A DNA stretch of 64,000 nt, from NCBI RefSeq assembly GCF_013374115.1, contig NZ_AP022673.1, positions 1,330,501 through 1,394,500 on the forward strand, in the 5' to 3' direction. Source of the DNA: Sphingomonas sp. HMP9. Its GTDB lineage: Bacteria; Pseudomonadota; Alphaproteobacteria; Sphingomonadales; Sphingomonadaceae. Within the stretch, counting starts at the first letter, position 1. Every line of letters begins with the position of its first letter. Under the pieces are notes generated by a model. That model searched no databases, had not been told where the DNA came from, and was given only the letters and a program-made list of their open reading frames with translations. The translations under genes were made by a program, and so were the position numbers. This document shows positions 1,508-64,000 of this stretch, in pieces.

Positions 1508-1508
1508 A

Positions 1509-3594: not shown

Positions 3595-3682
3595 AGCTTC
3601 CCTCGACGAACAAGAACGCGCCCGTTGCAACCGTCCCCAGCTTGCGGCACGGGAGCCACACCGCCTGCACGGAAGGTCCCGC

Positions 3683-6800: not shown

Positions 6801-6923
6801 CGTTCCCCCTGTCCGCCGACGGCATCGCATGGCCGCGCTAAATTCGGGTTAACCATGCGGTTCGGCGCGAAGGATGGCGGGACGCTTGCCCCCTGCCCTC
6901 GCGGCCACTATCCCGCGGCTTTA

Positions 6924-45890: not shown

Positions 45891-46727
45891 TTAGCGTGAC
45901 TGCTTGGCGAGATCGGTGTCGAACGCGACCTTGGCCTTCGCCACGATCTTCGGGAGCAAGGTCGGATCGACAAACGCGGTCATGTCCCCAGCCGCACGGC
46001 GCTTGCCGCGGGCGATCACGTCGGCGAGTTCGGGGTGCGACGGGAGGACGATGTCGGCGTGCAGCGTGCCGAGCATCGCGATGCTGCGGCGATAATCGGC
46101 GACGATGCCGGGATAGGCGCGGTTGCCGATCAGGCGATTGCCGGCGACGCTGACGCTGCACGGGAACACGACGTCGAGCGGACGCGGCCTGGCGGGGATC
46201 CGCATCGTCCAGGTCGTGCAGCCGGGCGTGTGGCCGGATGTTGCCCGCGCGGTCAGCGTGGTGGTGCCGAGGGTTACCGTCTCGCCATCGCGTACCCCGC
46301 GATCGACGGGGACGGGCGGGAAGCGGATGACGCCGTAGTTGGTTTCGCCCGGTGGCACGCCGGTTTCGAGGGCGCGGACGTCGCGCGTGCCGGCGATGAC
46401 GCGCGCGCCGGTCGCCCGCTTGAGCGCAGCTACGCCGGCGGCATGATCGGCATGGGCGTGGGTAACGAGGATCAGCTTCACGTCGCGCAGGCGGACGCCC
46501 GCTGCGGCGATGTTGCGCTCGATCATGCCGGCATTCTCGGCGAGCGTGCCGTCGATCAGGATGGCACCGGCGCTGGTGTTGATGAGGTAGGCCGCGATGC
46601 CTTCGCTACCGACATAGGTGATCGGGCCGGCGACGGCGAACGGCGCCTGCGGGCGCGTCCAGGCCGGCGGATCCGCCGCTCCGAGCAGGAGCGGTGCGCC
46701 GGCGGCTATCGCCAGCGCACTGGCCAA
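45891..46727 (-). CDS. Subclass-B3-like metallo-beta-lactamase-fold hydrolase
   Basis: A 278-residue exported MBL-fold protein with all B3-type zinc ligands visible: THAHADHAAG (HxHxDH) near residue 89, SGHTPGCTTWTM near 164, and PSHPEL near 228. Such proteins hydrolyse beta-lactams in some sphingomonads, but others act on different substrates. The only plausible start is TTG at 46727, which removes the basic end of the signal peptide; upstream codons (LRAKS) that would restore it run straight into a REP sequence. The 5' end may therefore be damaged. It is operonic with DUF969/DUF979. Confidence 0.8.
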   Translation of the reverse strand: MASALAIAAGAPLLLGAADPPAWTRPQAPFAVAGPITYVGSEGIAAYLINTSAGAILIDGTLAENAGMIERNIAAAGVRLRDVKLILVTHAHADHAAGVAALKRATGARVIAGTRDVRALETGVPPGETNYGVIRFPPVPVDRGVRDGETVTLGTTTLTARATSGHTPGCTTWTMRIPARPRPLDVVFPCSVSVAGNRLIGNRAYPGIVADYRRSIAMLGTLHADIVLPSHPELADVIARGKRRAAGDMTAFVDPTLLPKIVAKAKVAFDTDLAKQSR

Positions 46728-46750
46728 GGATTTCGCGCGAAGGCTCAGCG

Positions 46751-46769
46751 ATCCTCCCCCGCCAGGGGG
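46751..46769. repeat. REP half-unit at the IS boundary
   Basis: TCCTCCCCCGCCAGGGGG, half of the palindrome seen at 3355, abuts the left end of the IS256-family element and covers the region where the lactamase-fold gene should have its ribosome binding site. Confidence 0.65.
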
Positions 46770-48166
46770 GAGCTATGTTGGAAAATGGGTGACGGTGGAG
46801 GATTGAAGGCGGCGTATCGAGGCGGGTGATGAGCCTGCCGGAACCTCTCAAGGAGAGCGATACGCCATGACCGATACTACCAACGTCGTTCAATTTCGCC
46901 AGCCCGATGATGTCGACGATCCGTTGACCGAGGTGCTGCGTGCCGGAGCTCGCCGGCTGCTTGCGCAGGCGGTGGAACTGGAGGCCGAGGCGTTCCTGGC
47001 GGCGCGAGACGACCTGCGACTACCCGATGGACGGTCGCGCCTGGTGCGCCACGGGCACGGGCCAGAGCGTCAGGTCCAGACCGGGATTGGCCCGGTGCCG
47101 GTGTCGCGCGTGAAGATCCGTGATCGCGGGGGGGCCGAGGAAGGGGAGCGTGTGCGCTTCTCGTCGGCAATCCTGCCGCGCTGGGCACGGCGGACCAAGA
47201 GCCTGGATGCGCTGCTGCCGGTGCTGTATCTGCGCGGGGTTTCGACCGGCGATTTTCAGGAGGCGCTCACGGCGCTCCTTGGCAAGGACGCGCCCAACCT
47301 TTCGCCGGCGGTGGTCGGTCGGCTCACCGCTGAATGGCAGGTCGAATACGAGCACTGGCAGGCGCGCGACCTATCGGCCCGCCGCTACGTGTATGTGTGG
47401 GCGGACGGCGTCTACCTGCAGGCGCGGATGGAGGATCATTCCGAGTGCATGCTGGTGCTGATCGGCGCCACGCCTGAGGGCAGGAAGGAACTGGTCGGCT
47501 TCCAGGTGGGCGTCCGTGAAAGCGCTCAGAGCTGGCGCGAGCTGCTCGTCGAGGTGAAACGGCGCGGCCTCGCAATCGCACCCGAGATCGCGGTGGGCGA
47601 TGGCGCACTCGGCTTCTGGAAAGCGCTCGACGAAGTCTGGCCCAGCACGCGCCACCAGCGCTGCTGGGTGCACAAGATCGCCAACGTACTGAACAAGGTG
47701 CCCAAGTCGGTGCAGCCTGCAATAAAAGCTGACCTGCGCGAGATATATAGCGCGCCTGAGCGCGCAGCGGCGGAGAAGGCGATCGCCGTCTTTGTCGAGA
47801 AATATAGCGCGAAATACACCAAGGCCGTCGAATGCCTGACCAAGGATCGCGAGAGGCTGCTCACCTTCTTCGACTTCCCCGCCGAGCACTGGGACCATCT
47901 GCGGACGTCGAACCCGATCGAGAGCGTGTTCGCGACCGTGCGCCACAGGACGGTGCGTACCAAGGGCGCGCTGTCACCAAAGACGGCACGCCTCATGGTC
48001 TTCAAACTCGTCATCGCCGCGTCCAGGAAATGGCGCCGGCTGAAGGGCGAGAACCAGTTGCCCAAAGTCGTCGCTGGTGTCACATTCCGTGACGGCACCG
48101 AAGTCGTCGACGGCCAATCAACCCGCGCCGCCTGATCGCCTCGTCACCCAAATTTCGGCATAGCTC
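46770..48166 (+). mobile_element. IS256-family insertion sequence
   Basis: About 1397 bases bounded by 25-bp inverted repeats, GAGCTATGTTGGAAAATGGG at the left and GAGCTATGCCGAAATTTGGG as the complement at the right, both ending GTGACG; 20 of 25 positions agree. It holds one transposase gene. The 8 bases outside each end (CCAGGGGG and TATGGGAG) differ, so there is no target duplication. A gene is cut off at the right end. The element marks the border between the core-like region and the accessory DNA. Confidence 0.88.
46867..48135 (+). CDS. IS256-family (Mutator-type) transposase
   Basis: A 422-residue DDE transposase. Visible catalytic context: YVYVWADGVYLQAR (first Asp) near residue 180, EIAVGDGALGFWKALDEV (second Asp) near 243, TRHQRCWVHK near 261, and NPIESVFATVRHRT (Glu) near 352. 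CAAGGAGAG before the ATG is a clear ribosome binding site. The gene is full length, so the IS may be active. Confidence 0.95.
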   Translation: MTDTTNVVQFRQPDDVDDPLTEVLRAGARRLLAQAVELEAEAFLAARDDLRLPDGRSRLVRHGHGPERQVQTGIGPVPVSRVKIRDRGGAEEGERVRFSSAILPRWARRTKSLDALLPVLYLRGVSTGDFQEALTALLGKDAPNLSPAVVGRLTAEWQVEYEHWQARDLSARRYVYVWADGVYLQARMEDHSECMLVLIGATPEGRKELVGFQVGVRESAQSWRELLVEVKRRGLAIAPEIAVGDGALGFWKALDEVWPSTRHQRCWVHKIANVLNKVPKSVQPAIKADLREIYSAPERAAAEKAIAVFVEKYSAKYTKAVECLTKDRERLLTFFDFPAEHWDHLRTSNPIESVFATVRHRTVRTKGALSPKTARLMVFKLVIAASRKWRRLKGENQLPKVVAGVTFRDGTEVVDGQSTRAA

Positions 48167-48396
48167 TATGGGAGGGCGAAGGACGCTCATTCCGATACCC
48201 TGTCACCTACATCCGCGACGGCAAGGAGGAGAAGCGCAAGTCGCGCGTCGATGATCTCGAGCCCGAAGCGCTGATCACCGGCCACTACAAATTCGGCGCC
48301 AACGAACTAAGCATCCACCGCGCCCTGGTTCGTATCGTCGACATGCTGAAGGCCGATTATGGCCTGACGATTCCCGCACCCGAGGATCCCGCATGA
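48167..48396 (+). pseudogene. 3' fragment of an unknown gene truncated by the IS
   Basis: An open frame runs from the IS end to TGA at 48394-48396, giving about 75 residues such as RYPVTYIRDGKEEKRKSRVD and YKFGANELSIHRALVRIVD, clearly protein-like. There is no start codon; the IS256 right end replaces it. The stop overlaps the ATG of the SNase-like gene, so the two were probably co-translated before the truncation. No family is recognised. Confidence 0.7.
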
Positions 48397-48830
48397 TTGC
48401 GGCGCGCCGTGTGCTGAGCCCACCAGCGTTCATCCTCTGCGCCTTTGCCTTCTCGGTGATGGCGACGCCCGCCCGGGCGGACCCCTGCGAAGGTCGCCTG
48501 CCATCTCAGCCGGGGCAGCAGTTTTCGGGAACGGTCCGCTATGTCGGTGACGGCGACGGGCTGTGCGTTGGCAATTCCAGCGATCCAAACACCTGGATCG
48601 AAGTGCGCTTGGCGGACTTTGACGCGCCCGAACTTCACTCCCCTGATGGCCGCCTGTCCAAATCGCTCCTCGAGCGGGTTGCGTTCGGTCAGAATGTAAC
48701 TTGCGAGGCGCGGCGCGGGCGGCGTGGCCGCGTGATCGTTTTCGACCGGGTGATCGCCGTCTGCCGCGTCCATGGCCGCTCGATCGGCGATCTACTCCGC
48801 GCGCGGCACGCGCCAGAAGGCGGCAACTGA
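48393..48830 (+). CDS. Exported SNase-like (thermonuclease-family) protein
   Basis: A 145-residue protein with a signal peptide (FILCAFAFSVMATPARA) and a staphylococcal-nuclease-like OB fold: GTVRYVGDGDGLCVG near residue 46 and EVRLADFDAPELHS near 70, where the nuclease family has its Asp and Arg residues. Such proteins are common in conjugative elements of alphaproteobacteria. Some catalytic Arg/Glu positions are not obvious, so activity is uncertain. Its start overlaps the upstream truncated gene. Confidence 0.78.
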   Translation: MIAARRVLSPPAFILCAFAFSVMATPARADPCEGRLPSQPGQQFSGTVRYVGDGDGLCVGNSSDPNTWIEVRLADFDAPELHSPDGRLSKSLLERVAFGQNVTCEARRGRRGRVIVFDRVIAVCRVHGRSIGDLLRARHAPEGGN

Positions 48831-48963
48831 TCGTCGAACCTCGATCAGGAATGGTCTGAGTCCGAGGGGGGAATGCCTTCCCCTGCGGTCGAGCCGAACG
48901 TCTCGTCCGACCCCTTCTGCGGGGAGCACCCCGCAACGCCCCCGCGGTGACAACCAATCCTGA

Positions 48964-49437
48964 CGGTGGAATCCATTCGCAGCAACATGCGTTGTCTCTG
49001 ACCGTCAGAATGAGACTCACGCGACGAAACCCACGCTTCAGGCACATCTGCTCGAACGCGCCGCGAGTTTCCTCGTCATGGCCGATCACGTCGCCGAACC
49101 TGAAGCCCGGCTTTGCGGAGAACCGCTTTTACAGAATGTCGGCTATGCGCTCGAACTCGGGCTCAAAGCGCTCCTTGTTGAGCGGGGATGGGACGACGAT
49201 CGCTGCCGCATCGAGGTGCGGCATGACATCGCCAAGGCCCTCGGCGAAGCCGCGAAGGTCGGATTTGTACCAGCGCATCCCGACCTTGCCGCCCTGATCG
49301 CCACTATCAGCCCCTAATACAAGCGGCACGGACTGTCCGAATTGGTGGCCACCGGCGGCTTGGCGATGTCGCCCGATCAGGTCTTGGCCGTGACGCGGAG
49401 CCTGCTTGATCAGGTCCGCGTGTCGGTCACTAGGTAG
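48964..49437 (+). pseudogene. HEPN-like gene with an in-frame stop
   Basis: One reading frame stays protein-like from about 48964 to 49437 but is broken by a TAA at 49315-49317. The first part contains LLQNVGYALELGLKALLVER and a following RHDIAKALGEAAK, resembling HEPN-domain proteins; the part after the stop continues YKRHGLSELVATGGLAMSPD. No ATG, GTG or TTG is found in frame before 49078, so the 5' end may also be lost. A 79-residue protein from ATG 49078 is the only intact product. Confidence 0.5.
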
Positions 49438-49485
49438 CTGACGGATCCGCCGGCCCACATAAGAGGGAGAGGGCTGCGGCTGTCG

Positions 49486-49536
49486 CCGTGACGGGTTTTG
49501 AAGGTCGAGAGAGGTTTTCTGGCCGGCCCGTCGCGG
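49486..49536 (+). promoter_or_regulatory. Hairpin leader with GGTCGAGAGAG loop, upstream of ardC
   Basis: A stem CCGTGACGGG/CCCGTCGCGG (10 pairs with one G-U) encloses a 31-base loop containing GGTCGAGAGAG. The right arm runs into the GGAG ribosome binding site of ardC (ATG 49546). Matching hairpins precede the parB-like gene and sno. Confidence 0.6.
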
Positions 49537-49545
49537 AGATACGCG

Positions 49546-50280
49546 ATGACACGCCCAGCTTCCAAAGGCCATGCCCGAGTCCAGCGCTCGAACATCTACG
49601 ACGAGATCACCACCAAGATTATTGCCGAGCTGGAGGCAGGCCGCCTCCCCTGGGTCCAGCCCTGGGGCTCGAGCACGGTATCGGCGCCACTTGCTATGCC
49701 GCGGAACGCCGCGACCGATCGTGGCTATTCCGGCATCAACGTCCTGATCCTCTGGGGCGCGGTGGTCCAACATGGCTTCGCCACGCAAGGCTGGCTCACC
49801 TTTCGCCAAGCTATGGGGCTGGGCGGCAATGTCCGCAAAGGCGAACACGGCACCACCGTCGTCTATGCCGATCGCTTCATCCCCGATGACGAGCGTCGCC
49901 GGGCACAGGACAATGGTGACGATCCAGCCGCCATTCCCTTCCTCAAGCGCTTTACCGTATTCAATGTCGCCCAATGTGAGGGCTTGCCCGACGGGCTATC
50001 GGCGCCGCCCCCACCCATTCCCGAAGGTCTGATCGTGCCAGAGGTCGAGGCGCTCATTCGTGCCAGCGGCGCCGACCTGCGTCTGGGCGGAGACAAGGCC
50101 TTCTATGCACCGGGTCCCGATTTTATTCAGATCCCCAGGCCCGAGGCCTATTTCGAGCCGATCAACTGGCATCGCACGGCCCTGCATGAGCTGGGGCATT
50201 ATGCCGCCCGCCGGATTATGCCGCATGGCTGTGCAGAACGGCAGATTCTTGCGGCAGAACCATGCGGCAGGTCGGCATAA
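49546..50280 (+). pseudogene. ardC: ArdC antirestriction protein, 5' part, split by a RIT element
   Basis: N-terminal 218 residues of an ArdC-like protein: a DUF1738 single-strand-DNA-binding domain (YDEITTKIIAELEAGRLPWV near residue 19, GINVLILWGA) and the start of a zincin-like metallopeptidase domain. The frame enters the inserted element immediately after HELGH (residues 214-218), so the present product gains a 27-residue tail encoded by the inverted repeat and stops at 50280. The missing part resumes at 54862. ArdC proteins protect incoming plasmid DNA from restriction. The split protein keeps its DNA-binding half. Confidence 0.88.
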
Positions 50281-50282
50281 TC
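50197..50282 (+). repeat. RIT left terminal inverted repeat
   Basis: 86 bases starting CATTATGCCGCCCGCCGGAT and ending CGGCATAATC. It contains three ATTATGCCG or CGGCATAAT half-palindromes, likely recombinase-binding sites, and encodes both the chimeric ardC tail and the stop of the third recombinase. Confidence 0.9.
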
Positions 50283-51276
50283 AGAGGGCTTCGAGCCAGG
50301 CGAGCAGTTTGTCGTCTGGCCGGAAGCGACCTGGGCGGGTTTCGGGTGTGGCGACGCTGGCCAATGCTTTTTCCTTGAGCCGCATATCGGCATGGATGTA
50401 GATTTGCGTCGTCTCGACGGATTCGTGTCCGAGCCAGAGTGCGATGACCGACTGGTCAACGCCATGATGGAGCAGTTCCATCGCCGTGCTGTGGCGCAGG
50501 GTATGCGGGCTCACCCGTTTCCCGACCAAACTCGGGCATGAACGCGCGGCGGTCAGGCAGTGCTTGCGGACCAGATGTTCCAAGGCATCGCGAGAGAGCG
50601 GATCGCCGCGGATAGACGGGAACAGTGCACCATCATCGTCACCGCGCCGTTCCTTCAACCAGTTGTGCAACGCCTTGGCCGTATCGCGACGAAGCGGTGT
50701 GCAACGTTCCTTCCTGCCCTTGCCTAGGCAGCGGATGTGCGCACCGGTGCCCAACTGGACATCCCTGCAGCGCAGCCCGATCAGCTCCGATGCCCGGAGG
50801 CCAGTTTGCACGGCTACGAGCAACAGGATGTGATCTCGACGACCAGTCCAGGTCGATCGGTCGGGCGCGGTCAGCAATGCCGTAATCTCCGCCCCATCGA
50901 GGAACGTGACCGTCCGCTTAACGTAACGTTTGTCCGGTAGGGTGAGGATCCTTTGACAGTGCAGCAACCACTCGGGTTCGTTCATAGCGACGTAACGGAA
51001 GAAGGATCGGATCGCGGCGAGCCGGGTGTTGCGGCTTCGCGCCCCGTTACCTCTCGATGTCTCGATATGGACGAGGAAGTCGCCGATCACCTGTACGTCA
51101 AGGTCAGCGATGCCGAGCTTCGTAGGCGATTTCCCCGAACGTGCGCTCGCAAAGCGGATAAGCAATCGGAACGTGTCTCGATATCCCGCGATCGTGTGAT
51201 GGCTTGCCTCCATCTGGGTGCAAAGGCGGTCAGTGAAGAAGCGCTGGAGCAGCGCCGCGAACGTCATGCTGGTCAT
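50281..51276 (-). CDS. RIT tyrosine recombinase, third gene
   Basis: A 331-residue tyrosine recombinase with an N-terminal SAM-like core-binding domain (about residues 8-95) and a catalytic domain. Visible catalytic residues are Arg in QTGLRASEL, Lys in CLGKGRKER, the HxxR of SPHTLRHSTA, His of LGHESVETT and the Tyr nucleophile in TQIYIHAD. Last of three co-directed recombinase genes; its start overlaps the middle gene's stop by four bases. The three proteins probably act together at the element ends. Confidence 0.93.
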   Translation of the reverse strand: MTSMTFAALLQRFFTDRLCTQMEASHHTIAGYRDTFRLLIRFASARSGKSPTKLGIADLDVQVIGDFLVHIETSRGNGARSRNTRLAAIRSFFRYVAMNEPEWLLHCQRILTLPDKRYVKRTVTFLDGAEITALLTAPDRSTWTGRRDHILLLVAVQTGLRASELIGLRCRDVQLGTGAHIRCLGKGRKERCTPLRRDTAKALHNWLKERRGDDDGALFPSIRGDPLSRDALEHLVRKHCLTAARSCPSLVGKRVSPHTLRHSTAMELLHHGVDQSVIALWLGHESVETTQIYIHADMRLKEKALASVATPETRPGRFRPDDKLLAWLEAL

Positions 51277-52217
51277 GACCGCACCTCCCCATCATGACCG
51301 TCGGCGATCCGGGATGACGCGAGTTCCAAGAGTTCCGGAACGGCCTCGATGTACCAATAGGTGTGTTCTGGATTGGAATGGCCAAGCAATGTGGTCAGCT
51401 TGAACATCTCGCGTGCGGGATCCTTGCCGGACCTGTACCAGTCGATCATTGTTTGCGCGGCAAAGCTGTGCCGCAGGTCGTGGATACGGGGGCCGTGGCC
51501 ATGGCGCCCCTCGACCTGAGGCTCGCGCAGGCCGATTCGCTGACAGACCTGTGCAAAGTTATAGCGGGCACCGCAGTCGCCGAGCCGTACTCCGTCGCAC
51601 TTGACGAAGAACGGAACCGGCGTCCTGCCGAGCAACCGATCCCTTTCCGCAGCAAAGAAGCGCAGCCGCACGGTAGCACTGTCGTGAACGGGAACCAGGC
51701 GTTCCTTGCCGAGCTTTCCAAAGCGGATATGGACGATACCGGTATCGAGATCGACGTCGCCGGTGTCGAGGCTCAGCGCTTCATTGATCCGCATGCCCGT
51801 CACCGCGATCAGCCCGAACAGGGTCGAGCAGGTCAAGCCACGCATGCCGTATATCGAGGGAAGTCGTGCAGCTTCTTCGACGATGGCGATGATCTGCGCA
51901 TCGGTGAAGATGTAGGGGTGTGTTCTACAATAACGGTAAGGGATCAGGCCACGGGGTAGCACTTCGTGGGCGGCATCCAGGCCATGCAGCCATTGGCTGA
52001 ACAGGCGCACCATGATGAAGCGTGCGCCCCACGTCGAACGCCGGGCCTGGCCGAACACCGCCTGCCAGCGCAGGAACAGATCGACGGTGACATGAGTGGC
52101 GCCCTGACCATCGGCATATTGTACGAAGCGGCGCAGTACCCGTTCAGCCGTTGCGAGATCATAGCCCAGGCTGCGTCTGACGCTGATATAACGGTCGAGT
52201 TCATGAGCGAGAGTCAT
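51273..52217 (-). CDS. RIT tyrosine recombinase, second gene
   Basis: A 314-residue tyrosine recombinase starting MTLAHELDRYISVRRSLGYD. Catalytic set: Arg in VTGMRINEAL, Lys in FGKLGKERLV, HxxR in IHDLRHSFA, His in LLGHSNPEHT, and Tyr in TYWYIEAV. The N-terminal domain has the extra YRYCRTHPYIFTD segment typical of RIT middle recombinases. Its ATG overlaps the first gene's stop by one base; the frame to 52241 is not used. Confidence 0.93.
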   Translation of the reverse strand: MTLAHELDRYISVRRSLGYDLATAERVLRRFVQYADGQGATHVTVDLFLRWQAVFGQARRSTWGARFIMVRLFSQWLHGLDAAHEVLPRGLIPYRYCRTHPYIFTDAQIIAIVEEAARLPSIYGMRGLTCSTLFGLIAVTGMRINEALSLDTGDVDLDTGIVHIRFGKLGKERLVPVHDSATVRLRFFAAERDRLLGRTPVPFFVKCDGVRLGDCGARYNFAQVCQRIGLREPQVEGRHGHGPRIHDLRHSFAAQTMIDWYRSGKDPAREMFKLTTLLGHSNPEHTYWYIEAVPELLELASSRIADGHDGEVRS

Positions 52218-53428
52218 CACGCTTCTCCCGCCGTCGGCCAAGGCTTCGCAATCGACCGGAGGCCGTCGATATCGAGCTTCGCATAGATCATCGTCGATGC
52301 GCGCGACCGGTGCCGCAGCATGTCGCCTATCTCATCAAGGGATGCGCCGTTGCGCACCATGTTTGTCGCCAGGCTGTGGCGCAGGACGTGCGATCCTACG
52401 TAAGGACCCGGTGGCGTAACACCGGTCGCGGCGAACGCATCCTTCAGGATATCGTTGATGACCTGGCCATTCTTGAACGGACCGTTCGGCGCCCGCAACG
52501 AGACGAACAATGTCCGCGATGCCGATACACGCTCCTGGCGGATATAGCGCGCGACCGCTTCCCCGACGTCCGATGGGATTGGCAGACGATCATGGCGGTG
52601 CCCTTTGCCTCGCACCAACAACTCACCGGCTCGCCAGTCGATATCCTCGAGCCGGACGGCGATCACCTCAGGCGCCCGCAGCCCGAGCCTGGCCATCAGC
52701 AGAAGCATCGCATGATCGCGCAGCCCATGTTTCGGATTGTCGCGGACACACGCCAGAAGGGCCTCGATCTGCTCCGGCGACAGGAAGCGTGGCAGTCTCG
52801 TATCCCAGCGATGGGCGACAGTCGGTACGCTCAGCGCAAGGTTGGTTCCCGTGACACCCCGCTGGAACAGATATTGGAAGAACGTCCTCAAATGCGTGGC
52901 GGCGCTCTTGTCGCGATAGGGTGCCTTTCTACCGACCAGATGTTGAAGGAAGGACACCACATCAGTCGGGCTGATCGCCGCCAGATCCGTTTCGCGGTCA
53001 CTGAACCGGTGGTCGAGGAACCGGTCGGCGAAGCGCCAGCAATGATAGATCGTGCGTGGACTCAATCCCCGTTGCCGTAGCAGATAATCTTCGTAATCGA
53101 AGCGCAACGTTTCACGAGCGATCTGCCCCGGTGTCGCGATCGGCGCTGGAACCACTCCGCTCTCGATCAGATGGGTAACGAAGCGCCGCGCGATATTCTG
53201 GCACTTGTTCGGTTCGCGCCGCTTGCGCTCGTCGCTGCGGACCAGATCGGCCGCCCGTTCTACCGCTATATCCGCTAACGATATCCCGGCTGCCTCGATC
53301 AAGGATACCAGACGGTTCAGCAAGACCCGATAGGTCTTCATCGTTCGTGGCTTGTAATTTTCGGCGGCCAGCCGGACCATGAACGTCCCAATATGGTGGT
53401 CGAGTGAAGCGTGGGTGATTTTTGGCAT
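52217..53428 (-). CDS. RIT tyrosine recombinase, first gene
   Basis: A 403-residue tyrosine recombinase, the largest of the trio, with about 160 residues before the catalytic core (MPKITHASLDHHIGTFMVRL at the start). Catalytic set: Arg in RLGLRAPEV, Lys in VRGKGHRHDRL, HxxR in SHVLRHSLA, a further His/Arg in LRHRSRAST, and Tyr in MIYAKLD. GAGGAG nine bases before ATG 53428 decides the start. It is divergent from the passenger genes across a 121-base gap containing ATGATCAT palindromes. Confidence 0.93.
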   Translation of the reverse strand: MPKITHASLDHHIGTFMVRLAAENYKPRTMKTYRVLLNRLVSLIEAAGISLADIAVERAADLVRSDERKRREPNKCQNIARRFVTHLIESGVVPAPIATPGQIARETLRFDYEDYLLRQRGLSPRTIYHCWRFADRFLDHRFSDRETDLAAISPTDVVSFLQHLVGRKAPYRDKSAATHLRTFFQYLFQRGVTGTNLALSVPTVAHRWDTRLPRFLSPEQIEALLACVRDNPKHGLRDHAMLLLMARLGLRAPEVIAVRLEDIDWRAGELLVRGKGHRHDRLPIPSDVGEAVARYIRQERVSASRTLFVSLRAPNGPFKNGQVINDILKDAFAATGVTPPGPYVGSHVLRHSLATNMVRNGASLDEIGDMLRHRSRASTMIYAKLDIDGLRSIAKPWPTAGEA

Positions 53429-53549
53429 TTGGCGTGCTCCTCGGTGTGGAAACACGATCCGACCCTTGCCGCCGCCCCGGCCGCAAGATTATTGATATGC
53501 TGTCGTCGTCCGATCACGGCATGATGATCATGATTTTTGTTCTGCCGGG

Positions 53550-54200
53550 ATGGATATGAAGAAGGCGACCACGACACCGAGCAATAGAAACGCGCAGGCG
53601 CTGCTGGAGAAGCACCGGTCTCCGGTGCCGTTCCACGAGGTGCGCACGCGTTTCCTGGGTAATATCGCAACCCCCGCGATGTCCGTCGCGCCATTGCAGG
53701 TCATCAAGAATCTATGGGGCGGCGAACTTCCGGCCTTCGACAGTATCGACGAAGTCAACGAACTGCTCGATGCGCTGGTCCAGGGGCTCTGGAACGACCT
53801 GACCCGGCATCAGAAGCGCGGTCAGCCGTTTCGACTGACCCGGATGCCCGCGGAGCCAACCGCAGCTAATCTGGGTCGACACGGTCTCGTTCGTATCCAG
53901 GAACTGGACGGCTTCATCGAAGGGCTGTTCAATGGCGAGGACGCCATCGATCTCCCCGAGCGGGCACATGAGGCCGTCCGCCATCTTGCCGAACTGCGCG
54001 CCATGATGGCAGGGATCTGCGAGCTGGTATCCCGCGACCCTGTGGCCGATGACCGGAACCAACTCGACATAACCTTCAGGCATTTGCGCGAACTGACGCG
54101 AATCATGGAGACAGAGATCCACGAGGCGGTGCTATCCTGCACGCGCGCGCGCCGCCAGATGCTGGACGGTATCTTCACCGAGAAGCCGACGGTGCACTGA
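53550..54200 (+). CDS. RIT passenger protein 1, unknown function
   Basis: A 216-residue mostly helical protein with no family I can name. Segments such as RIQELDGFIEGLFNGEDAID and a following ERAHEAVRHLAELRAMM suggest amphipathic helices. It is read divergently from the recombinases and lies five bases from the next gene, so the two form a cargo operon inside the terminal repeats. ATG 53550 or 53556 may be the start. It could be cargo or an accessory of transposition. Confidence 0.65.
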   Translation: MDMKKATTTPSNRNAQALLEKHRSPVPFHEVRTRFLGNIATPAMSVAPLQVIKNLWGGELPAFDSIDEVNELLDALVQGLWNDLTRHQKRGQPFRLTRMPAEPTAANLGRHGLVRIQELDGFIEGLFNGEDAIDLPERAHEAVRHLAELRAMMAGICELVSRDPVADDRNQLDITFRHLRELTRIMETEIHEAVLSCTRARRQMLDGIFTEKPTVH

Positions 54201-54205
54201 CGCTG

Positions 54206-54643
54206 ATGCAGCCCGAAGACCAACTCCGCGACAAGCTGCGCAAGATCGAAGCCCTCTACGCTGGCGCCAAAACCGCCGGTGAGAAGTCAGCGGCCGGTGC
54301 TGCTGCAGAACGCATCAGGCTTAAATTCGCGGATGCCAGCAAGACGGAACGGGTCGAGGAGTTCAAATTCTCGATCCCCGATCCATGGTCCCGCCAGCTC
54401 TTCACCGCCTTGTGTCGTCGCTATGGCATCAAGCCCTTCCGCTACACGCGGATGCACCGCCAGACTGTTATCATCCGTGCCCCGGCCAGCTTCGTCCAGA
54501 TGACGCTTTGGCCCGAGTTCGAAGAACTGAGCGGCGCACTCACCGCGCATCTTCACGAGATCACCACGAAAATCATCCGCGAGGAGGTGCATGAAGCCAC
54601 TCAGGATGCCGAAGAGATGAACGAACCGCGCCAGCTGGGGTGA
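54206..54643 (+). CDS. RIT passenger protein 2, DUF2786-like N-terminus
   Basis: A 145-residue protein. Residues 5-40 (DKLRKIEALYAGAKTAGEKS, then AAAERIR) resemble the DUF2786 helical motif found in phage and plasmid proteins. The C-terminal 90 residues (FSIPDPWSRQLFTALCRRYG) are not recognised. Five bases after passenger 1, inside the element. Function unknown. Confidence 0.7.
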   Translation: MQPEDQLRDKLRKIEALYAGAKTAGEKSAAGAAAERIRLKFADASKTERVEEFKFSIPDPWSRQLFTALCRRYGIKPFRYTRMHRQTVIIRAPASFVQMTLWPEFEELSGALTAHLHEITTKIIREEVHEATQDAEEMNEPRQLG

Positions 54644-54750
54644 GAGCTTTGCGCTCAGGTGCCAATGCTACCCGATCATGAGCGCTGCAAAGCTGTCCGG
54701 CAAGAATTCACCTTGGCCGATCGTTACCAAGTCCGTGACGCGACGCCTTT

Positions 54751-54836
54751 GATTATGCCGGAATGCGGCGTGGTTCTGCCGCAAGAATCTGCCGTTCTGC
54801 ACAGCTATGCGGCATAATCCGGCGGGCGGCATAATG
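54751..54836 (-). repeat. RIT right terminal inverted repeat
   Basis: Complement of the left repeat, with six differences in 86 bases, five of which cluster near the inner end. The outer 29 bases are identical to the left copy. Confidence 0.9.
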
Positions 54837-54839
54837 GAC

Positions 54840-54861
54840 GTTATGCCGATATCGGCATAAC
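54840..54861. repeat. Perfect 22-bp palindrome at the RIT-ardC junction
   Basis: GTTATGCCGAT followed by its exact complement. It shares the TTATGCCG core with both terminal repeats and lies directly before the resumed ardC frame. It is a good candidate for the crossover or recombinase-binding site; the left end has no such copy. Confidence 0.75.
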
Positions 54862-55155
54862 GGCCATTGGTCGGGCCATCCCGGACGCCTCGCGCGCGAC
54901 CTGAGCGGTGGCTTCGGGTCGAAGGCCTATTCGCGCGAGGAGCTCGTCGCCGAAATGACGTCGGCCTTCTGCTGCGCGAGCCTCGGCATCGCGCCGACCG
55001 TGCGCCATGCCGATTACATCGGCGCCTGGCTCGACGTCCTGCGCGAGGACAATCGCGCCATCGTGCGCGCGGCGAGCGCGGCCTCCAAAGCGGCGGACTA
55101 CCTCCTCGCCTTCGCGCCCAGTGCGGCACGGGAGGAGGATCGGCAAGCGGCGTGA
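54862..55155 (+). pseudogene. ardC: ArdC antirestriction protein, 3' part
   Basis: The frame resumes with GHWSGHPGRLARDLSGGFGS, then YSREELVAEMTSAFCCASLG containing the third zinc-ligand Glu region of the peptidase, and ends in a helical tail SAASKAADYLLAF. Together with 49546-50199 it gives a complete ArdC of about 313 residues. It now lacks its own start; an internal ATG at 54955 could give a short fragment. It confirms that the RIT inserted within the HELGH zinc site. Confidence 0.88.
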
Positions 55156-55217
55156 CCTCGCCCGCTGCGCGCCAGCTCGGCCGGAGTTCAGGAGAGTAAG
55201 AGGGTCGAGACGGACTT

Positions 55218-55263
55218 CGTGACGGGTCAGGGTCGAGAGAGAGGCTCCCGGCCGCCCGTCACG
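55218..55263 (+). promoter_or_regulatory. Hairpin leader with GGTCGAGAGAG loop, upstream of the parB-like gene
   Basis: Perfect 9-bp stem CGTGACGGG/CCCGTCACG with a 28-base loop containing GGTCGAGAGAG. The right arm touches the GGAG ribosome binding site eight bases before ATG 55275. A TAAGAGGG block further upstream is also shared with the ardC leader. Confidence 0.6.
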
Positions 55264-55274
55264 GAGAACATCCC

Positions 55275-57380
55275 ATGACCCAGGCTTCCCAGAAAATCGT
55301 CCTGTCCCCCTCGCGGGACATCCCCTTCAACAAGCTCGTGCTGAGCCAGTCCAATGTGCGCCGGATCAAGTCCGGCGTCTCGATCGAAGATCTTGCCGAG
55401 GACATTGCACGACGGACCCTGCTCCAAAGCCTCAACGTCCGCGCGGTCGTCGATTCCGAAGGCAATGAAACCGGCATGTTCGAGGTGCCGGCCGGAGGTC
55501 GGCGCTATCGTGCGCTCGAACGGCTCGTGAAACAGAAGCGCCTGTCGCGGACAGCACCCGTGCCCTGCGTCATCCGCGAGAGCGCGGACATCTCGGCCGA
55601 GGAGGATTCGCTCGCCGAAAACAGTCAACGTGAGCCGCTGCATCCGCTCGACCAGTTTCGTGCCTTCCAGACCCTGCGCGAACAGGGTCAAGGCGACGAG
55701 GCAATCGCGGCGCGCTTCTTCGTCACGCCGGCCATCGTTCGCCAGCGCCTCAAGTTGGCGTCCGTATCCGACCGGCTGCTCGCCCTCTACGCCGAGGACG
55801 AATTGACCCTGGACCAGCTGATGGCCTTCACCGTCACCAACGACCATGCGCGCCAGGAACAGGTCTGGGAGGCGCTCGCGCGCAACCCCTACAAGGAAGC
55901 CTATCAGATCCGGCGCATGTTGACCGAAGGCGCCGTGCGCGCTTCCGATCGACGTGCACGTTTCATCGGCGCGGAGGCTTATGAAGCCGCAGGCGGCGAC
56001 ATCTTACGTGACCTCTTCCAGACCGATGACGGTGGGTGGTTTCAGGATCCGGCGCTTCTCGACCGTCTGGTCTCAGAAAAACTCGCGGCGGCTGCGGAGA
56101 CCGTCGCCGCCGAAGGCTGGAAGTGGATCAGCGCCGACGTCGGTTTCGATTACGGACACACGCGCGGACTCCGCGTCTTGCCCTCCACCAGCTCGCTGAC
56201 CGATCAAGAACACGCGACCTACGAGGCGCTCAGCCAGGAGTATGCGGCGCTTGAGGAGACCTACGCCGAGGCCGAGGAGCTGCCCGACGAGGCCGACCAG
56301 CGCCTTGGAGAAATCGAGGCCGCGCTCGAAGATCTCCAGAACCGACCGGCGCTGTTCGATCCGGCTGACATCGCGCGGGCGGGCGCCTTTGTCAGCCTCG
56401 ACAGCTCTGGCAGCCTCAAGACCGAACGCGGGTTTGTGCGACCGGAGGACGAAGCAGAAGCCGAGCCGGATGCCACCCGTGGCGATACGGATGATGTCGT
56501 CGAGCCTTCCGAGCCCGATGCCGGCATCCAGCGCGCCGTCATCACGATCGGCGGTGCAGCCCAGCCCGCCGGCGAAATCGACGAGGATGACGACACCATC
56601 AAGCCGCTGCCCGAGCGGCTGATGACCGAACTGACTGCGCATCGGACGCTGGCATTGCGCAACGCAGTGGGTGCCGACCCCGCCACGGCCTATCTCGCCG
56701 TCCTTCATGCCCTCGCGTTGAAGACGTTCTACCGCTTCAGCACCGCGACGTGCCTGGAGATCGAAGCCAAGCACTCCGCCTTTGGTCACCAGGTGCCTGG
56801 CCTCAACGACACAGCGTCGGCGCAGGCGATCACCGCGCGCCATGCGAGCTGGTCGGATCAGCTGCCTCAGGACCCCGGTGCCTTGTGGCAGACGTTGACG
56901 ACCTTCGATACGGATCGACGCGGGGGACTGTTCGCCCACTGCGTCAGCTTCAGCATCAACGCCGTCCACCAGTCCTGGAACCAGGGCGACAGGATGAAAC
57001 ATGCTGACGCTTTGGCGCAGGTCGTCGATCTCGACATGGTCGCGGCAGGCTGGACCCCGACGGTCGAATCCTACCTCGGCCGCGTCACCAAGCCGCGCAT
57101 TCTGGAGGCTGTTCGCGACGGCAAGGGTGATCGCGAGGCCCAGCTCATCGAGCACCTCAAGAAGGGCGATATGGCCAAGGAGGCCGAACGGCTGCTGGCC
57201 GGTTCAGGCTGGCTGCCGGAGCCGTTGCGCACCGCAACCGATCAACCCGTCTTGCTCGAACCGGACGGATCGGAGCCCGAAGCGCTGCCGGCTTTCCTGA
57301 CCGCTGACGAGGATGACGAGGCCGGAGCCTCCGACCCCGAGCCGGCTGCAGGGTTTGAGCACGCCATCGCCGCTGAATGA
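55275..57380 (+). CDS. ParB/RepB-like nuclease-domain protein of a mobile element
   Basis: A 701-residue ParB-family protein. The N-terminal ParB/sulfiredoxin-fold domain (residues 18-125) contains VPAGGRRYRALERLV and the ENSQREPLHPLDQFRAF segment, followed by a helix-turn-helix type region (IAARFFVTPAIVRQRLKLA near residue 150). A long acidic region (about residues 310-440) and a C-terminal domain of unknown type complete it. Such proteins are common on sphingomonad plasmids and integrative elements, in place of a short partition ParB. It has a hairpin leader and its own terminator. Confidence 0.85.
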   Translation: MTQASQKIVLSPSRDIPFNKLVLSQSNVRRIKSGVSIEDLAEDIARRTLLQSLNVRAVVDSEGNETGMFEVPAGGRRYRALERLVKQKRLSRTAPVPCVIRESADISAEEDSLAENSQREPLHPLDQFRAFQTLREQGQGDEAIAARFFVTPAIVRQRLKLASVSDRLLALYAEDELTLDQLMAFTVTNDHARQEQVWEALARNPYKEAYQIRRMLTEGAVRASDRRARFIGAEAYEAAGGDILRDLFQTDDGGWFQDPALLDRLVSEKLAAAAETVAAEGWKWISADVGFDYGHTRGLRVLPSTSSLTDQEHATYEALSQEYAALEETYAEAEELPDEADQRLGEIEAALEDLQNRPALFDPADIARAGAFVSLDSSGSLKTERGFVRPEDEAEAEPDATRGDTDDVVEPSEPDAGIQRAVITIGGAAQPAGEIDEDDDTIKPLPERLMTELTAHRTLALRNAVGADPATAYLAVLHALALKTFYRFSTATCLEIEAKHSAFGHQVPGLNDTASAQAITARHASWSDQLPQDPGALWQTLTTFDTDRRGGLFAHCVSFSINAVHQSWNQGDRMKHADALAQVVDLDMVAAGWTPTVESYLGRVTKPRILEAVRDGKGDREAQLIEHLKKGDMAKEAERLLAGSGWLPEPLRTATDQPVLLEPDGSEPEALPAFLTADEDDEAGASDPEPAAGFEHAIAAE

Positions 57381-57385
57381 AAATC

Positions 57386-57455
57386 GCGGGGCGGCGTTCG
57401 GCCGCCCCGCTCCATTCCCACCTTTCGGCCCGCCTTCTGCCGGGCCTTTCCTTTG
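57386..57455 (+). terminator. Two hairpins after the parB-like gene
   Basis: GCGGGGCGGC/GCCGCCCCGC (57386-57410) begins five bases after the stop. GGCCCG/CGGGCC (57427-57446) follows and is trailed by TTTCCTTT, which makes the second a good intrinsic terminator. Confidence 0.7.
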
Positions 57456-57468
57456 TCAGGAGCTTGCC

Positions 57469-57711
57469 ATGCCGATCCCCGACCATGCCTCCCGCAATTT
57501 CCAGACCCTGCTACAGGCCGCCCGCAATGATGATCTGGCCCTGATGGAATGCTTAGACGCCGAGACGCGCGAGCTGCGCTACGTCCTTTGCGCCGTAGGC
57601 CGAGACGGCGAAGACTATGTCTTCACGCCGTTCGGCCATCTCGCGCCCGGCAATCCGTTCGACGCCTATCTGCCTCCGGCCGATGGCGGCGGCTTTGCCG
57701 AAACAGAGTGA
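57469..57711 (+). CDS. Small DUF6117-like protein
   Basis: An 80-residue acidic protein starting MPIPDHASRNFQTLLQAARN and ending with a PFGHLAPGNPFDAYLPP segment. I recognise it as the small protein usually found between the ParB-like and strawberry-notch genes of such elements (DUF6117 in family databases, from memory). CAGGAG precedes the ATG. Function unknown. Confidence 0.75.
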   Translation: MPIPDHASRNFQTLLQAARNDDLALMECLDAETRELRYVLCAVGRDGEDYVFTPFGHLAPGNPFDAYLPPADGGGFAETE

Positions 57712-57727
57712 GAGGGGGGCCGGGAGG

Positions 57728-57771
57728 GGGCGAGCCGGTGCGGTCGAGAGAGAGCGCCGATCGGCTTGCCC
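57728..57771 (+). promoter_or_regulatory. Hairpin leader with GGTCGAGAGAG loop, upstream of sno
   Basis: Stem GGGCGAGCCG/CGGCTTGCCC (10 pairs, one G-U) with a 24-base loop containing GGTCGAGAGAG. An outer CCGGGAG/CTCCCGG pairing may extend it to within 11 bases of ATG 57799. The arm sequence differs from the other two leaders while the loop is the same. Confidence 0.58.
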
Positions 57772-57798
57772 TCCTCCTGCTCTCCCGGATGACCCGCC

Positions 57799-60700
57799 AT
57801 GACATCAACCGCACTCGCGTCCCCAACGCTCACCGTGACAAGCCGCGCGCCGGCCAATCGCGCCCTGGCGCTCCACCGCGCCGCTCTGGATCTCCTTCCC
57901 ACCCTGATCGCGGGCACGGCGCTCAATGCCCGCGCCCTTCGCACCACTATGGAGGCAGCGTTTGGCGGATCGGACGCCCAAGGGCTGTGGACCTGGAAGG
58001 ACGCTTATGAGGCGTGCGAAGCGGCGCAGATCGCGTTCCTGCACCGATTTGGACCGGCGCTGTGCGGCCGTCCGGCCAGTTCGCAGCTTGCCGTGGTCAG
58101 CAAGATTGCCGGCCTGCTCCCCACCCACACCCGACGCTCAATCGAAAGCGAGGCGCTCCAGCAATTCTCGACGCCCTTGCCCCTTGCATGGGTCGCGGCA
58201 CGCGCAGCCATGATCACGCGGGGTGATCTTGTTCTGGAGCCATCAGCCGGGACCGGATTGCTTGCCATCTTCGCTGAGCTTGCTGGTGCCGAAGTGGCGC
58301 TTAATGAATTGGGCGAAACCCGCGCTGACCTTCTCGGTCATCTCTTTTCGACCACGGTCGTCACCCGGTTTGACGCCGCCCACATCCATGACCATCTCGA
58401 CGCCGGGCTGCTCCCGAGCGTCGTCCTCATGAATCCGCCCTTCTCGGTCGCCGCGCAGGTCGAAGGCCGCGTCGCCGACGCGGCCCTCCGGCACATCAAC
58501 TCCGCCCTGGCCCGTCTCGCCGAAGGCGGTCGCCTGGTCGCCATCACTGGGGCGAGCCTGTCCCCCTACGATGCAGCATGGCGCGATGCGTTTATCGACC
58601 TTCAGGCGCGGGGCCGAATCGTCTTCTCCGCCGCGATCGACGGCCGTGTCTATGCTCGGCATGGTACAACGACCGAAACGCGCCTGACCGTGATCGACCG
58701 TCTCCCGGCCGATGACCCATCATGCTTCCCCGTCACACCCGGCATGGCGTCCAGTACGACCGAGCTTCTGGCCTGGGTCGACAATGCGATTCCCGCGCGC
58801 CTGCCCATGAGCGCCGCTTTTACGCCGAGCCGCGTCTCCGCAAAGCCGGCTATGCGGAAATCCGTTGCGTCACCTGCACGATCTGCGTCGCAATCGATCG
58901 ACCCCGCCGCCGTGCCGCTGCGCTATTCCGTGGTGGACTGGTCCCAACCCGCAGCCGATCGGATCACCGAGGCTCTCTATGAAGGCTACGGACTGCAATC
59001 AGTGGCCATCGATGGAGCTTGCCCCCATCCGACGCCGCTCGTGCAGTCCGCGTCCATGGCTTCTGTTTGCCCACCGAAGCCGAGCTATGTTCCGCTTCTG
59101 CCTGAGGACCTGGTCGAAGCCGGCCTTCTATCCGATGCCCAGCTTGAAACCGTCATCTATGCGGGCGAAGCCCATGATGGCCAGTTGGCAGGCGCCTGGA
59201 CAGTCGATGCAACCTTCGACCAGATCAGTGCCGCGCCTGAAAATGCCAACGGCATGGTCCGATTTCGCCGAGGCTTCATGCTCGGCGATGGGACGGGCGC
59301 GGGCAAGGGCCGCCAAGTCGCCGGCGTCATTCTCGACAATTGGCTAAAGGGCCGTCGACGCGCGCTGTGGGTCTCGAAATCCGACGCGCTCCTTGAGGAC
59401 GCCCAGCGCGACTGGTCGGCCCTCGGCCAGGAACGGCTGTTGGTGACGCCGCTCTCCCGCTTTCGCCAAGGTGCGCCCATCCGACTGGAGGAAGGCATCC
59501 TTTTTACCACCTATGCCACGCTACGGTCCGACGAACGCGAGGGGAAGGTTTCACGCGTCCGACAAATCGTCGACTGGTTGGGCTCCGATTTCGACGGGGT
59601 CATCGTGTTCGACGAATCCCACGCCATGCAGAATGCCGCAGGCGGCAAGGGCGAACGCGGCGAGCAGGCCGCGTCGCAGCAGGGCAAGGCTGGCTTACGC
59701 CTGCAACATGCGCTTCCCGATGCCCGCGTACTCTACGTCTCGGCGACCGGCGCGACGACGGTTCACAACCTCGCTTATGCCCAACGGCTCGGCCTGTGGG
59801 GTGGCGACGACTTCCCGTTCGCCAGCCGCGCCGAGTTCGTGCAGGCAATCGAGGCCGGCGGCGTCGCCGCGATGGAAGTGCTCGCCCGCGACCTCAAGGC
59901 GCTCGGCCTCTATGCCGCTCGCTCGCTGTCCTACGAAGGGGTCGAATATGAGATCGTCGAACACCGGCTGACAGCCGAGCAAACCGGCATCTATGACGCC
60001 TACGCCGGCGCGTTCGAGATCATTCACAACAATCTGTCGGCCGCGCTTGAAGCCTCCAACATCACAGGTGCTGGGCCGGATGGTGGAACCAAGACGCTGA
60101 ACGCTCAGGCCAAGTCCGCAGCGCGGTCTGCCTTTGAGAGCGCCAAGCAGCGATTCTTCAATCACCTGATTACCGCCATGAAGACCCCGACGCTGATCGC
60201 GGCGATCGACCGTGACCTTGCCGAAGGTCACGCCTGCGTCGTCCAGATCGTCTCCACAGGCGAAGCCTTGCTCGAACGGAGACTCGCCGACATTCCGACC
60301 GAAGAATGGGGCGATATCGCCGTCGACATCACCCCGCGCGAATATGTCCTGGACTATCTGGCGCACTCGTTCCCAACCCAGCTCTTCGAACCCTATACCG
60401 ATGGCGAGGGTAACCTGTGCTCGCGGCCGGTGATGCGCGATGGCCAGCCCGTGCAATGCCGCGATGCGCTCGAACGCCGCGATCGTCTCATCGAGCATCT
60501 CGGCGCACTGGCTCCGGTGCAAGGCGCGCTCGATCAGATCGTCCAGCGGTTCGGCACCGAGCAGGTCGCCGAAGTCACCGGACGGTCCCGCCGCGTCGTC
60601 GCCCGCATCGGCGCGGACGGCGAACGGCGTCTGTGCGTGGAAAATCGTGCGGGCAGCGCCAACCTGGCGGAGACCGCTGCGTTTCAGGACGATGACAAGC

Positions 60701-61482: not shown

Positions 61483-61587
61483 TTTCCACTGAGAGCTGAC
61501 CCGGAGAAGGCATAAATTTCCACCGAGAAGTGACCCGTGTCTCAACCTCACCCCGGCAGGCTGTCGGGGGATCAAGGAGTGATAGAC

Positions 61588-63880: not shown

Positions 63881-64000
63881 CCCGCAACCCCGCGGGCATG
63901 ACATGAACCCTTCGACGCGGGTCACTTCTCGATGAAAACTCCGGGTCAACTCTCAGTGAAAATCAACAGTTATGCGCCTTGGATCGCTTCATGCGCTCCT

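Follow-up and report, generated by a model that had tools for sequence, protein, structure and literature searches.

Comparison of homologues shows that two related, covarying classes of leader, predicted to fold better on the mRNA strand than on its complement and ending at the start codon, mark the same genes across Alphaproteobacteria. We consider it likely that these leaders are structured RNAs that act where translation of a shared set of genes begins, and they probably control the translation of anti-restriction and plasmid-establishment genes together. We found no description of the leader mechanism in the literature. Three of the leaders lie in the window, the whole 64,000-nucleotide stretch of Sphingomonas sp. 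HMP9 DNA that was analysed (NZ_AP022673.1, positions 1,330,501 to 1,394,500).

The 11-mer GGTCGAGAGAG occurs on the + strand of the window at 49503, 55231 and 57742, as an earlier, sequence-only reading had reported. These three are the only exact copies on both strands of the 4.0-Mb genome, and the reversed control pattern gave none. Allowing one mismatch, we found 4 copies in the window alone, which is not unusual because 9 of 100 shuffles held at least 4. Since the count in the window is unremarkable, the case rests on how many copies the whole genome holds, on where they lie and on the homologues. Strong folds were confirmed just before the starts, upstream of the ATG codons at 49546, 55275 and 57799. 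The fold z-scores of the ardC, parB and sno hairpins were -4.0, -4.0 and -2.6 in short constructs and -3.2, -3.3 and -3.3 in longer ones.

The class 1 leader of ardC (49461-49548, + strand) runs from the model start to the ATG at 49546-49548 and scores 73.9 bits with model R1 and 65.1 bits with R2. The class 1 leader of the parB-like gene (55192-55277, +) ends on the ATG at 55275-55277 and scores 88.2 and 86.5 bits; both leaders were in the alignments of both models. The class 2 leader of sno (57704-57801, +; R1, R3 and alignment A8) ends on the ATG at 57799-57801. It scores 21.6 bits (E 0.0013) with R1, which was built without it, and 94.2 bits with R3, which was built with it. Each leader begins with a purine box, namely AAGAGGGAGAGGG at 49461-49473 (+; position conserved in alignments A5 and A8), GAGAGTAAGAGGG at 55192-55204 (+; position conserved in A5) and CAGAGTGAGAGGG at 57704-57716 (+; A8). 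According to the ORF list and Pfam, a DUF6117 gene lies upstream of sno, and its stop codon (57709-57711) falls within the sno box.

The ardC hairpin (49486-49536, +), whose homologues covary, has an outer helix that runs into the Shine-Dalgarno (SD) sequence and an apical helix with GGTCGAGAGAG (49503-49513). The parB hairpin (55216-55265, +) likewise has an outer helix, which pairs into GGAG, and an apical helix with GGTCGAGAGAG (55231-55241). The motif had been placed in a loop of 24-31 bases. This does not hold for ardC and parB, where GGUC and the greater part of GAGAG make up the 5′ side of the apical helix and the loop is 3-5 nt. In the sno hairpin (57723-57775, +; class 2 pair counts), most of GGTCGAGAGAG (57742-57752) lies in the apical loop region with 7 of its 11 bases unpaired, and the supposed shared loop is mainly a loop in class 2 only. 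The outer arms, said to differ, do so in sno alone; those of ardC and parB are near-identical (GTGACGGG / CCCGTCRCGG).

The downstream genes, all on the + strand, were identified by Pfam domains. The ardC gene (49546-50280; ArdcN and MPTase-PolyVal) is shortened, ending at 244 aa against 313-335 aa in relatives, and adjoins three phage-integrase-type genes. The ParB-like protein has 701 aa and a ParB_N domain (55275-57380). The sno strawberry-notch helicase gene (57799-61482; AAA_34 and Helicase_C_4) encodes 1227 aa against 1422-1470 aa in relatives, and an IS21 pair follows at 61537. With its short ardC and sno, integrase-type genes and IS21, the mobile element in the window looks decayed.

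The two classes divide the genes between them. Class 1, about 87 nt long, precedes ParB-like, ArdC and DUF932-type genes, and class 2, about 99 nt long, precedes sno. Both share the 5′ purine box GAGAGkGAGAG, an apical GAGAGAG and a 3′ end on the start codon. The shared element is this box, which had been overlooked, together with the apical purines, and not the loop as such. The 80 named loci are those with the closest ParB-like relatives. There, class 1 stands before 79 of 79 testable parB-like genes, 57 of 59 ardC genes and 10 of 10 DUF932 genes. It was found before none of the toprim (0/61), DUF2493 (0/53) and DUF6117 (0/16) genes of these loci. Class 2 precedes sno in 72 of 72 cases there, and it stands before none of their parB-like, ardC, DUF932, toprim, DUF2493 or DUF6117 genes. 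The proposed association with ardC, parB-like and sno genes is thus borne out. Antirestrict (PF03230), RadC, DUF6878 and AlpA genes also carry a leader. In 235 of 237 strong matches, and in 76 of the 77 class 2 matches in the named loci, the last bases are a start codon that opens a frame of 60 codons or more; since the ATG is part of the leader models, the independent element in these tallies is the open frame alone.

A single element can carry several leaders, in front of ArdC, ParB-like, DUF932, sno and other genes, and the leaders are found on plasmids and in chromosomal copies across alphaproteobacterial mobile DNA. Plasmid pCHQ1 of the soil strain Sphingobium indicum UT26S carries one parB/sno/ArdC set with leaders and a paralogous set without a match at E up to 1. 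No leader match was obtained in 16 of the 39 genomes that gave a ParB-like match, mostly those with more distant proteins. Typing bears out a link to conjugation only in part, since 84 of the 144 plasmid records matched by one leader were typed non-mobilizable (50 were conjugative). Two weak R1 matches (G010 and G178; E 0.003 and 0.005) had no clear gene and are counted only within the 29/385 tally. As controls, an E. coli F-like leading region gave no significant leader (best R2 9.9 bits, E 3.9), and neither did a Shinella plasmid whose ParB-like protein is 35% identical (best R2 15.8 bits, E 0.12). Phages gave one weak blastn match (E 2e-3), and two IMG/VR contigs were matched, one of which (L205) encodes a ParB-like gene after its leader. 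The class 2 pattern had no match in the phage searches.

Pairing is kept while the arms change, as had been suggested, in class 1 (A5, A7) and in class 2 (A8); the sequence-only reading had named, as results that would speak against it, a lack of covariation in homologues or a loop explained by coding or a DNA site, and on the first point, the one examined here, covariation is present. In A5 (59 class 1 leaders), 93.0% of cells were paired, and pairing fell to 36-49% when the partner was slid. Doubly changed cells numbered 88 against 26.4 in shuffles, and the covariation was 0.349 against 0.207 (0 of 500 shuffles); these controls, like the swap controls below, leave relatedness among the leaders in. 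A7 comprises 150 leaders from the named loci, 140 of them distinct, aligned by fitting to the model; it had 166 doubly changed cells against 52.9. Compared with this strong signal, covariation in class 2 is moderate. A8 held 32 doubly changed cells against 11.3, and 8 pairs of the hand-drawn structure had double changes, a number that shuffles reached in 43 of 500 cases. RNAalifold returned 12 pairs from 15 class 2 leaders and 3 pairs from the 56-sequence alignment; since R3 took the latter structure, it is close to a sequence model. A MAFFT alignment of the window leaders misplaced sno.

The mRNA strand is better formed than its complement, which agrees with the earlier proposal of an RNA structure. 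The z-scores were -3.54 against -2.36 in class 1 and -2.42 against -1.38 in class 2, and the complement folds worse under RNA and DNA parameters alike; this test rules out the complementary strand only, and mRNA-sense single-stranded DNA would pass it. In A5 we counted 161 G-U cells (shuffle mean 176) and 27 A-C cells (shuffle mean 60).

Because the class 1 helix passes through the SD in the direction of the AUG, full-length RNA is predicted to have a closed ribosome site. An arm had been said to touch the ribosome binding site in two cases; this is incomplete, as the SD lies inside the class 1 stem. Bases -13 to -6 are paired at 0.78 in class 1, compared with 0.61 for a set of 66 other starts (p 9e-8). 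The linker/post-SD pairing is stronger within than between leaders (-9.24 against -8.34 kcal/mol, 0 of 1000 swaps; in A7, -9.46 against -8.59, 0 of 1000), and the mean MFE of class 1 leaders is -40 kcal/mol. The class 2 SD, paired at 0.52, is not above the controls and thus open, so occlusion of the ribosome binding site is not the principle common to both classes. An SD-pairing helix with covariation, as in an SD-sequestering cis-regulatory RNA, was found in class 1 and not in class 2.

With 45 of the 80 named loci covered, a loose box pattern gave 90 sense copies. Of these, 54 fell in class 1 leaders, and about 3 of the remainder lay away from any leader. The same search gave 11 antisense copies, several within sno coding sequence. 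Ribosome standby is not supported for the box. It can pair with an assumed alphaproteobacterial 16S tail better than the SD region does, yet no better than shuffled box letters; pattern searches of the own genome for this tail gave no match. An alternative fold that joins the box to the 3′ arm of the apical helix is not favoured either, since that arm varies with its own 5′ arm and the box is near-constant. For class 2, pairing between the box and a conserved CUCUCC before the SD is conceivable; those columns hardly vary and speak neither for nor against it. A common ligand, protein or small RNA had also been proposed, and here the searches came back empty: a perfect reverse-strand copy of the 11-mer, as an antisense RNA would supply, is absent from the own genome, and no partner gene was identified.

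The closed SD of class 1 would also suit a hairpin that silences long upstream transcripts, like the IS10 hairpin against read-through transcripts, with the real transcripts beginning or being cut inside the hairpin so that the SD is free. The mean class 1 MFE implies a silent default, and upstream transcripts are expected at sno, where the box overlaps a stop codon. However, such an insulator leaves the conserved box, the apical purines and the open SD of class 2 unexplained, and no sigma-70-like promoter was found in 49000-58200. We regard it as unlikely. A DNA operator for a regulator such as the ParB-like protein seems very improbable to us. The class 1 outer arms do form a DNA inverted repeat (CGTGACGGG...CCCGTCACG), and the ParB-like protein, plus AlpA in one locus, is encoded alongside. 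Yet the arms change together with pairing kept, A-C cells are depleted and G-U cells much less so, class 2 lacks this inverted repeat, and the place of the leader relative to the start codon is fixed.

A single-stranded DNA element, with a hairpin in the transferred strand acting as DNA in the recipient as an Frpo/ssi promoter or other ssDNA site, is a further alternative. The ArdC- and ParB-like genes resemble leading-region genes, an E. coli relative of the ParB-like gene adjoins ssb and psiB, and hairpin ssDNA promoters precede leading-region anti-restriction genes in other plasmids, as our leaders precede theirs (PMC8744291, PMC11541004; available in part). Those promoters are described there as longer (F Frpo 328 bp), with -10 and -35 boxes and acting as DNA. 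With the sigma-70 consensus, the only one used, 49000-58200 held no -35/-10 pair, in a stem or elsewhere (shuffle mean 1.7). A promoter read from the template strand needs the complement to fold, but the complement folds worse, and A-C cells, which are G-T on the complement, are depleted. The class 1 helix with the SD, ending beside the start codon, is explained by mRNA function and not by DNA. According to the available part of PMC8708921, the transferred strand of pLS20 is the non-template strand; if so here, a sense ssDNA fold passes the strand test, and for this reason we rate the ssDNA reading slightly higher and the structured RNA leader slightly lower. We still hold an ssDNA element to be improbable.

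No named motif had been recognised, and Rfam agrees: at gathering scores Rfam 15 found tRNA alone in the whole window, and with E values up to 1 there was nothing in 46000-64000. As in class 1, a helix covers the SD in SD-sequestering thermometers (ROSE, FourU) and in IS10-type read-through hairpins. Unlike them, the leaders have no Rfam match, very stable class 1 folds, a conserved box and apical sequence, and a shared mobile-element gene set. In its repetition before several establishment-type genes of one element, the structured leader resembles EGeRS1 of pLS20-family Bacillus plasmids, a conserved inverted-repeat region before several establishment genes, including pLS20 ardC. In the part of PMC8708921 available, EGeRS1 is predicted to fold as ssDNA or RNA, its authors describe the mechanism as unknown and consider an ssDNA promoter highly unlikely, and no placement on the SD or start codon like that of the leaders is described. 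The likeness is one of description. EGeRS1 spans 400-600 bp in Bacillus and the leaders 87-99 nt. The STAXI motif, a candidate RNA found close to genes for antirestriction, SSB and topoisomerase, raised the same RNA-or-ssDNA question; it consists of tandem pseudoknot repeats (PMC2864571, available in part). The leaders do not belong to it by our data, having no Rfam match and predicted single hairpins at the start codon, from a fold method that cannot show pseudoknots.

We propose that the leaders are a family of cis-acting RNAs that would govern the translation start of anti-restriction and establishment-type genes on alphaproteobacterial mobile elements. In class 1 the SD helix is predicted to close the ribosome site of the full-length RNA. 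A single trans-acting factor, probably an element- or host-encoded RNA-binding protein, may recognise the conserved purines of the box (GAGAGkGAGAG) and of the apical GAGAGAG and would set the translation of the entire gene set as activator or repressor. Most plausibly the genes would be quiet in a settled element and produced on DNA entry into a new cell; taken alone, this entry-coupled switch is a tentative suggestion. Equally speculative is a class-wide post-transcriptional establishment regulon, in which two RNA leader classes and one RNA-binding factor sensing a settled or just-entered element, and not ssDNA promoters or a DNA repressor, would time the anti-defence and establishment proteins of alphaproteobacterial conjugative elements.

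Early expression of anti-defence genes helps determine conjugation success. In the sources available, such genes are described as controlled by ssDNA promoters or by a DNA repressor, and EGeRS1 stands as one case of unknown mechanism. The leaders bear on the RNA-or-ssDNA question of EGeRS1 and STAXI. As a marker, a leader makes the uncharacterised gene behind it a candidate for an establishment or anti-defence role. A compact RNA element that marks the same kinds of gene across a bacterial class would thus offer a testable form of establishment control at the RNA level.

Exact copies of GGTCGAGAGAG lie at 49503, 55231 and 57742 of the window; these are the only ones in the whole 4.0 Mb genome, whose other strand holds no exact copy. 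A strong hairpin surrounds each copy and precedes, respectively, ardC, a parB-like gene and sno, the strawberry-notch helicase gene (gene families by Pfam). The sequence-only reading took the motif for a loop shared by all three leaders. This held for the sno leader, where the motif is mostly unpaired loop, but not for the ardC and parB leaders, where it is chiefly the 5′ strand of the apical helix. A second common element, the purine box (GAGAGkGAGAG), opens the leaders at 49461, 55192 and 57704. Searching the same genome with the later covariance models (E up to 1), we found no leader beyond these three. Three adjoining Phage_integrase-family genes occupy the cut end of ardC (50281-53455, minus strand), and an IS21 pair follows the shortened sno (61537-63880, plus strand). 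The window's element thus looks like a decayed remnant.

The ParB-like protein is present in 39 of 385 alphaproteobacterial genomes (E up to 1e-20), and the leader is plainly conserved upstream of its closer relatives. These leaders (class 1, about 87 nt) precede ParB-like, ArdC and DUF932-type genes; a class 2 leader of about 99 nt precedes sno. Run on the same 385 genomes, the class 1 model R1, made from 23 leaders, matched 29 (E up to 0.01), two of them weakly. Among the 29, 23 also carried the ParB-like gene and six did not; 16 of the 39 ParB-bearing genomes gave no R1 match and mostly carried more distant proteins. A second model, R2, made from 59 leaders, matched 25 of 299 phylum-drawn genomes, all from the same class or closer, in a sample whose other-class share is not given.

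Class 1 leaders fold into two helices separated by an asymmetric internal loop: an outer one (UYCGUGACGGG / CCCGUCRCGGA) and an apical one of at most 9 bp, which a short AGAGG-type loop closes. In an alignment of 59 class 1 leaders (A5), doubly changed cells occur at 15 of 20 pairs and number 88, compared with 26.4 in shuffles; the covariation score is 0.349 against 0.207 shuffled, with none of 500 shuffles as high. An alignment of 150 matches fitted to the model (A7) is in line with this, with 166 doubly changed cells against 52.9. For class 2, three hand-drawn helices pair 84.9% of cells, and doubly changed cells number 32 against 11.3. Eight class 2 pairs show double changes, which 43 of 500 shuffles equal, so the covariation support is weaker for this class. 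The RNA structure proposed from the three hairpins is therefore borne out by covarying pairs in homologues, less strongly in class 2.

We then examined named loci, the best 80 of 500 ParB-like relatives from a GTDB genome scan, which are close relatives only (59-97% identity). Their titles are mostly alphaproteobacterial, Sphingobium, Caulobacter, Mesorhizobium, Bradyrhizobium, Methylobacterium, Gluconacetobacter and Tistrella among them. Some are unresolved MAGs, and one module lies on a MAG contig titled Acidimicrobiaceae (L198), probably a binning error. R2 gave 154 matches (E up to 0.05), including two class 2 leaders, all on the parB strand. Class 1 preceded parB in all 79 loci that could be tested (L180 has no DNA upstream; a contig end cuts the leader in L120, L124 and L169), ardC in 57 of 59 (exceptions L148 and L151) and DUF932-type genes in 10 of 10. 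It was absent at toprim (0/61), DUF2493 (0/53), DUF6117 (0/16) and DUF6878 (0/12). With the class 2 model R3 we obtained 77 matches, spread over 74 loci and covering all 72 sno genes with a located start, 41 of whose leaders were in R3's alignment and 31 outside it; inspection by eye and by sequence pattern gave 71 of 73. R3 placed none at toprim, DUF2493, DUF6117, DUF6878, parB or ardC. The proposed association with ardC, parB-like and sno genes is thus supported in these loci. DUF6878 genes of other elements, by contrast, have class 2 leaders, so the gene set differs from element to element. Further class 2 leaders, at 182-275 and 6244-6341 of L131 and 14497-14591 of L182, stand before the gene of a 123-aa protein (MxxTSxxFDFR...) whose family is unknown, which makes it another candidate for the gene set. 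Small genes lying between parB and sno, DUF6117 and DUF6878 among them, frequently have a leader of another kind, which combines a terminator-like GC-rich hairpin and a U-rich stretch with CAGGAG immediately 5′ of ATG (window 57427-57468; relatives in L120-L199).

Matches counted as strong if they reached 40 bits with R1 or R2, belonged to A7, or reached 38 bits with R3; their totals are partly non-independent, as some genomes are both sampled genome and named locus (Tistrella, G260 and L129). In the other sets plus A7, 235 of 237 ended on the start codon of a frame 60 or more codons long, as did 76 of the 77 class 2 matches at the named loci. The targets in the 237-match set were ParB-like (111), ArdC (70), DUF932-type (21; an NCBI annotation name for a protein that Pfam assigns no family) and sno (17), with RadC, Antirestrict (PF03230), DUF6878 and AlpA as smaller families. 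A CCCCGCAACGCCCC-like sequence lies upstream of 37 of 205 leaders, about 15-110 bases 5′ of the ardC or DUF932 leader (L078, L080, L087, L088, L156 and others). In most cases it closes a conserved stretch made up of several small hairpins (GGGGAAAGCCTTCCCC ...), whose upstream part gives way at a few loci to other sequence, resembling a recombination junction.

Leaders occur on plasmids typed conjugative (pRCCGE531a, pCHQ1, pEJ01, pYP1), on plasmids typed non-mobilizable and on chromosome-sized contigs, the window's own included. Performing blastn with one class 1 leader, we retrieved 144 plasmid records, of which 84 are typed non-mobilizable, 50 conjugative and 10 mobilizable. Two IMG/VR contigs classed as viral (L205, L206) have class 1 leaders; L205 also encodes the ParB-like protein and could therefore be a piece of a plasmid or integrative element. 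pCHQ1 (L207) carries at 592-9075 a second ssb/toprim/sno/parB-like/ArdC-like set in a different gene order; neither leader class was matched ahead of the sno, parB-like or ArdC-like gene of this set (E up to 1). The leader is therefore not an obligatory partner of these protein families.

Which strand acts was weighed from base-pair types and folding. G-U cells numbered 161 against a shuffle mean of 176 in A5 and 344 against 427 in A7, while A-C cells were halved in A5 (27 against 60) and fell to 45 against 130 in A7; for class 2 the difference was small (G-U 80 against 91.5, A-C 30 against 37.8). Relative to shuffles, the mRNA strand folded better than its complement in both classes: z was -3.54 against -2.36 for class 1 (ahead in 51 of 59 leaders) and -2.42 against -1.38 for class 2 (43 of 56). 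These results count against a function of the complementary strand. Single-stranded DNA of mRNA sense would fold alike, and strand folding alone does not tell it from mRNA; the Shine-Dalgarno (SD) sequence and start codon within the helix do, and make action as such DNA improbable. Positions 49000-58200 of the window show no sigma-70-like promoter pair (sigma-70 consensus only).

The mRNA reading draws on the ribosome site. The class 1 helix extends past the SD in both directions. Within a leader, the linker and post-SD segments paired better than they did after swapping, at -9.24 against -8.34 kcal/mol (58 distinct, 0/1000 swaps) and -9.46 against -8.59 kcal/mol in A7 (125 distinct, 0/1000), with kinship among leaders left in. 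Positions -13 to -6 of class 1 have a pairing probability of 0.78, compared with 0.61 at 66 other starts on four plasmids. The class 2 SD is not closed (0.52). Both classes share the purine box, the apical GAGAGAG and their position but differ in occlusion geometry, which points to a trans-acting factor that would read both.

Full-text literature, partially covered, gave no account of such a leader among the matches listed. The nearest elements among them are EGeRS1 of pLS20-type plasmids, STAXI and Frpo. We conclude that the leaders are a real, strongly conserved and apparently not yet described family of structured mRNA leaders, which marks anti-restriction/establishment-type genes of alphaproteobacterial mobile elements. 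On the best reading of the modelled structure, the class 1 helix over the SD would control translation of the genes behind it.
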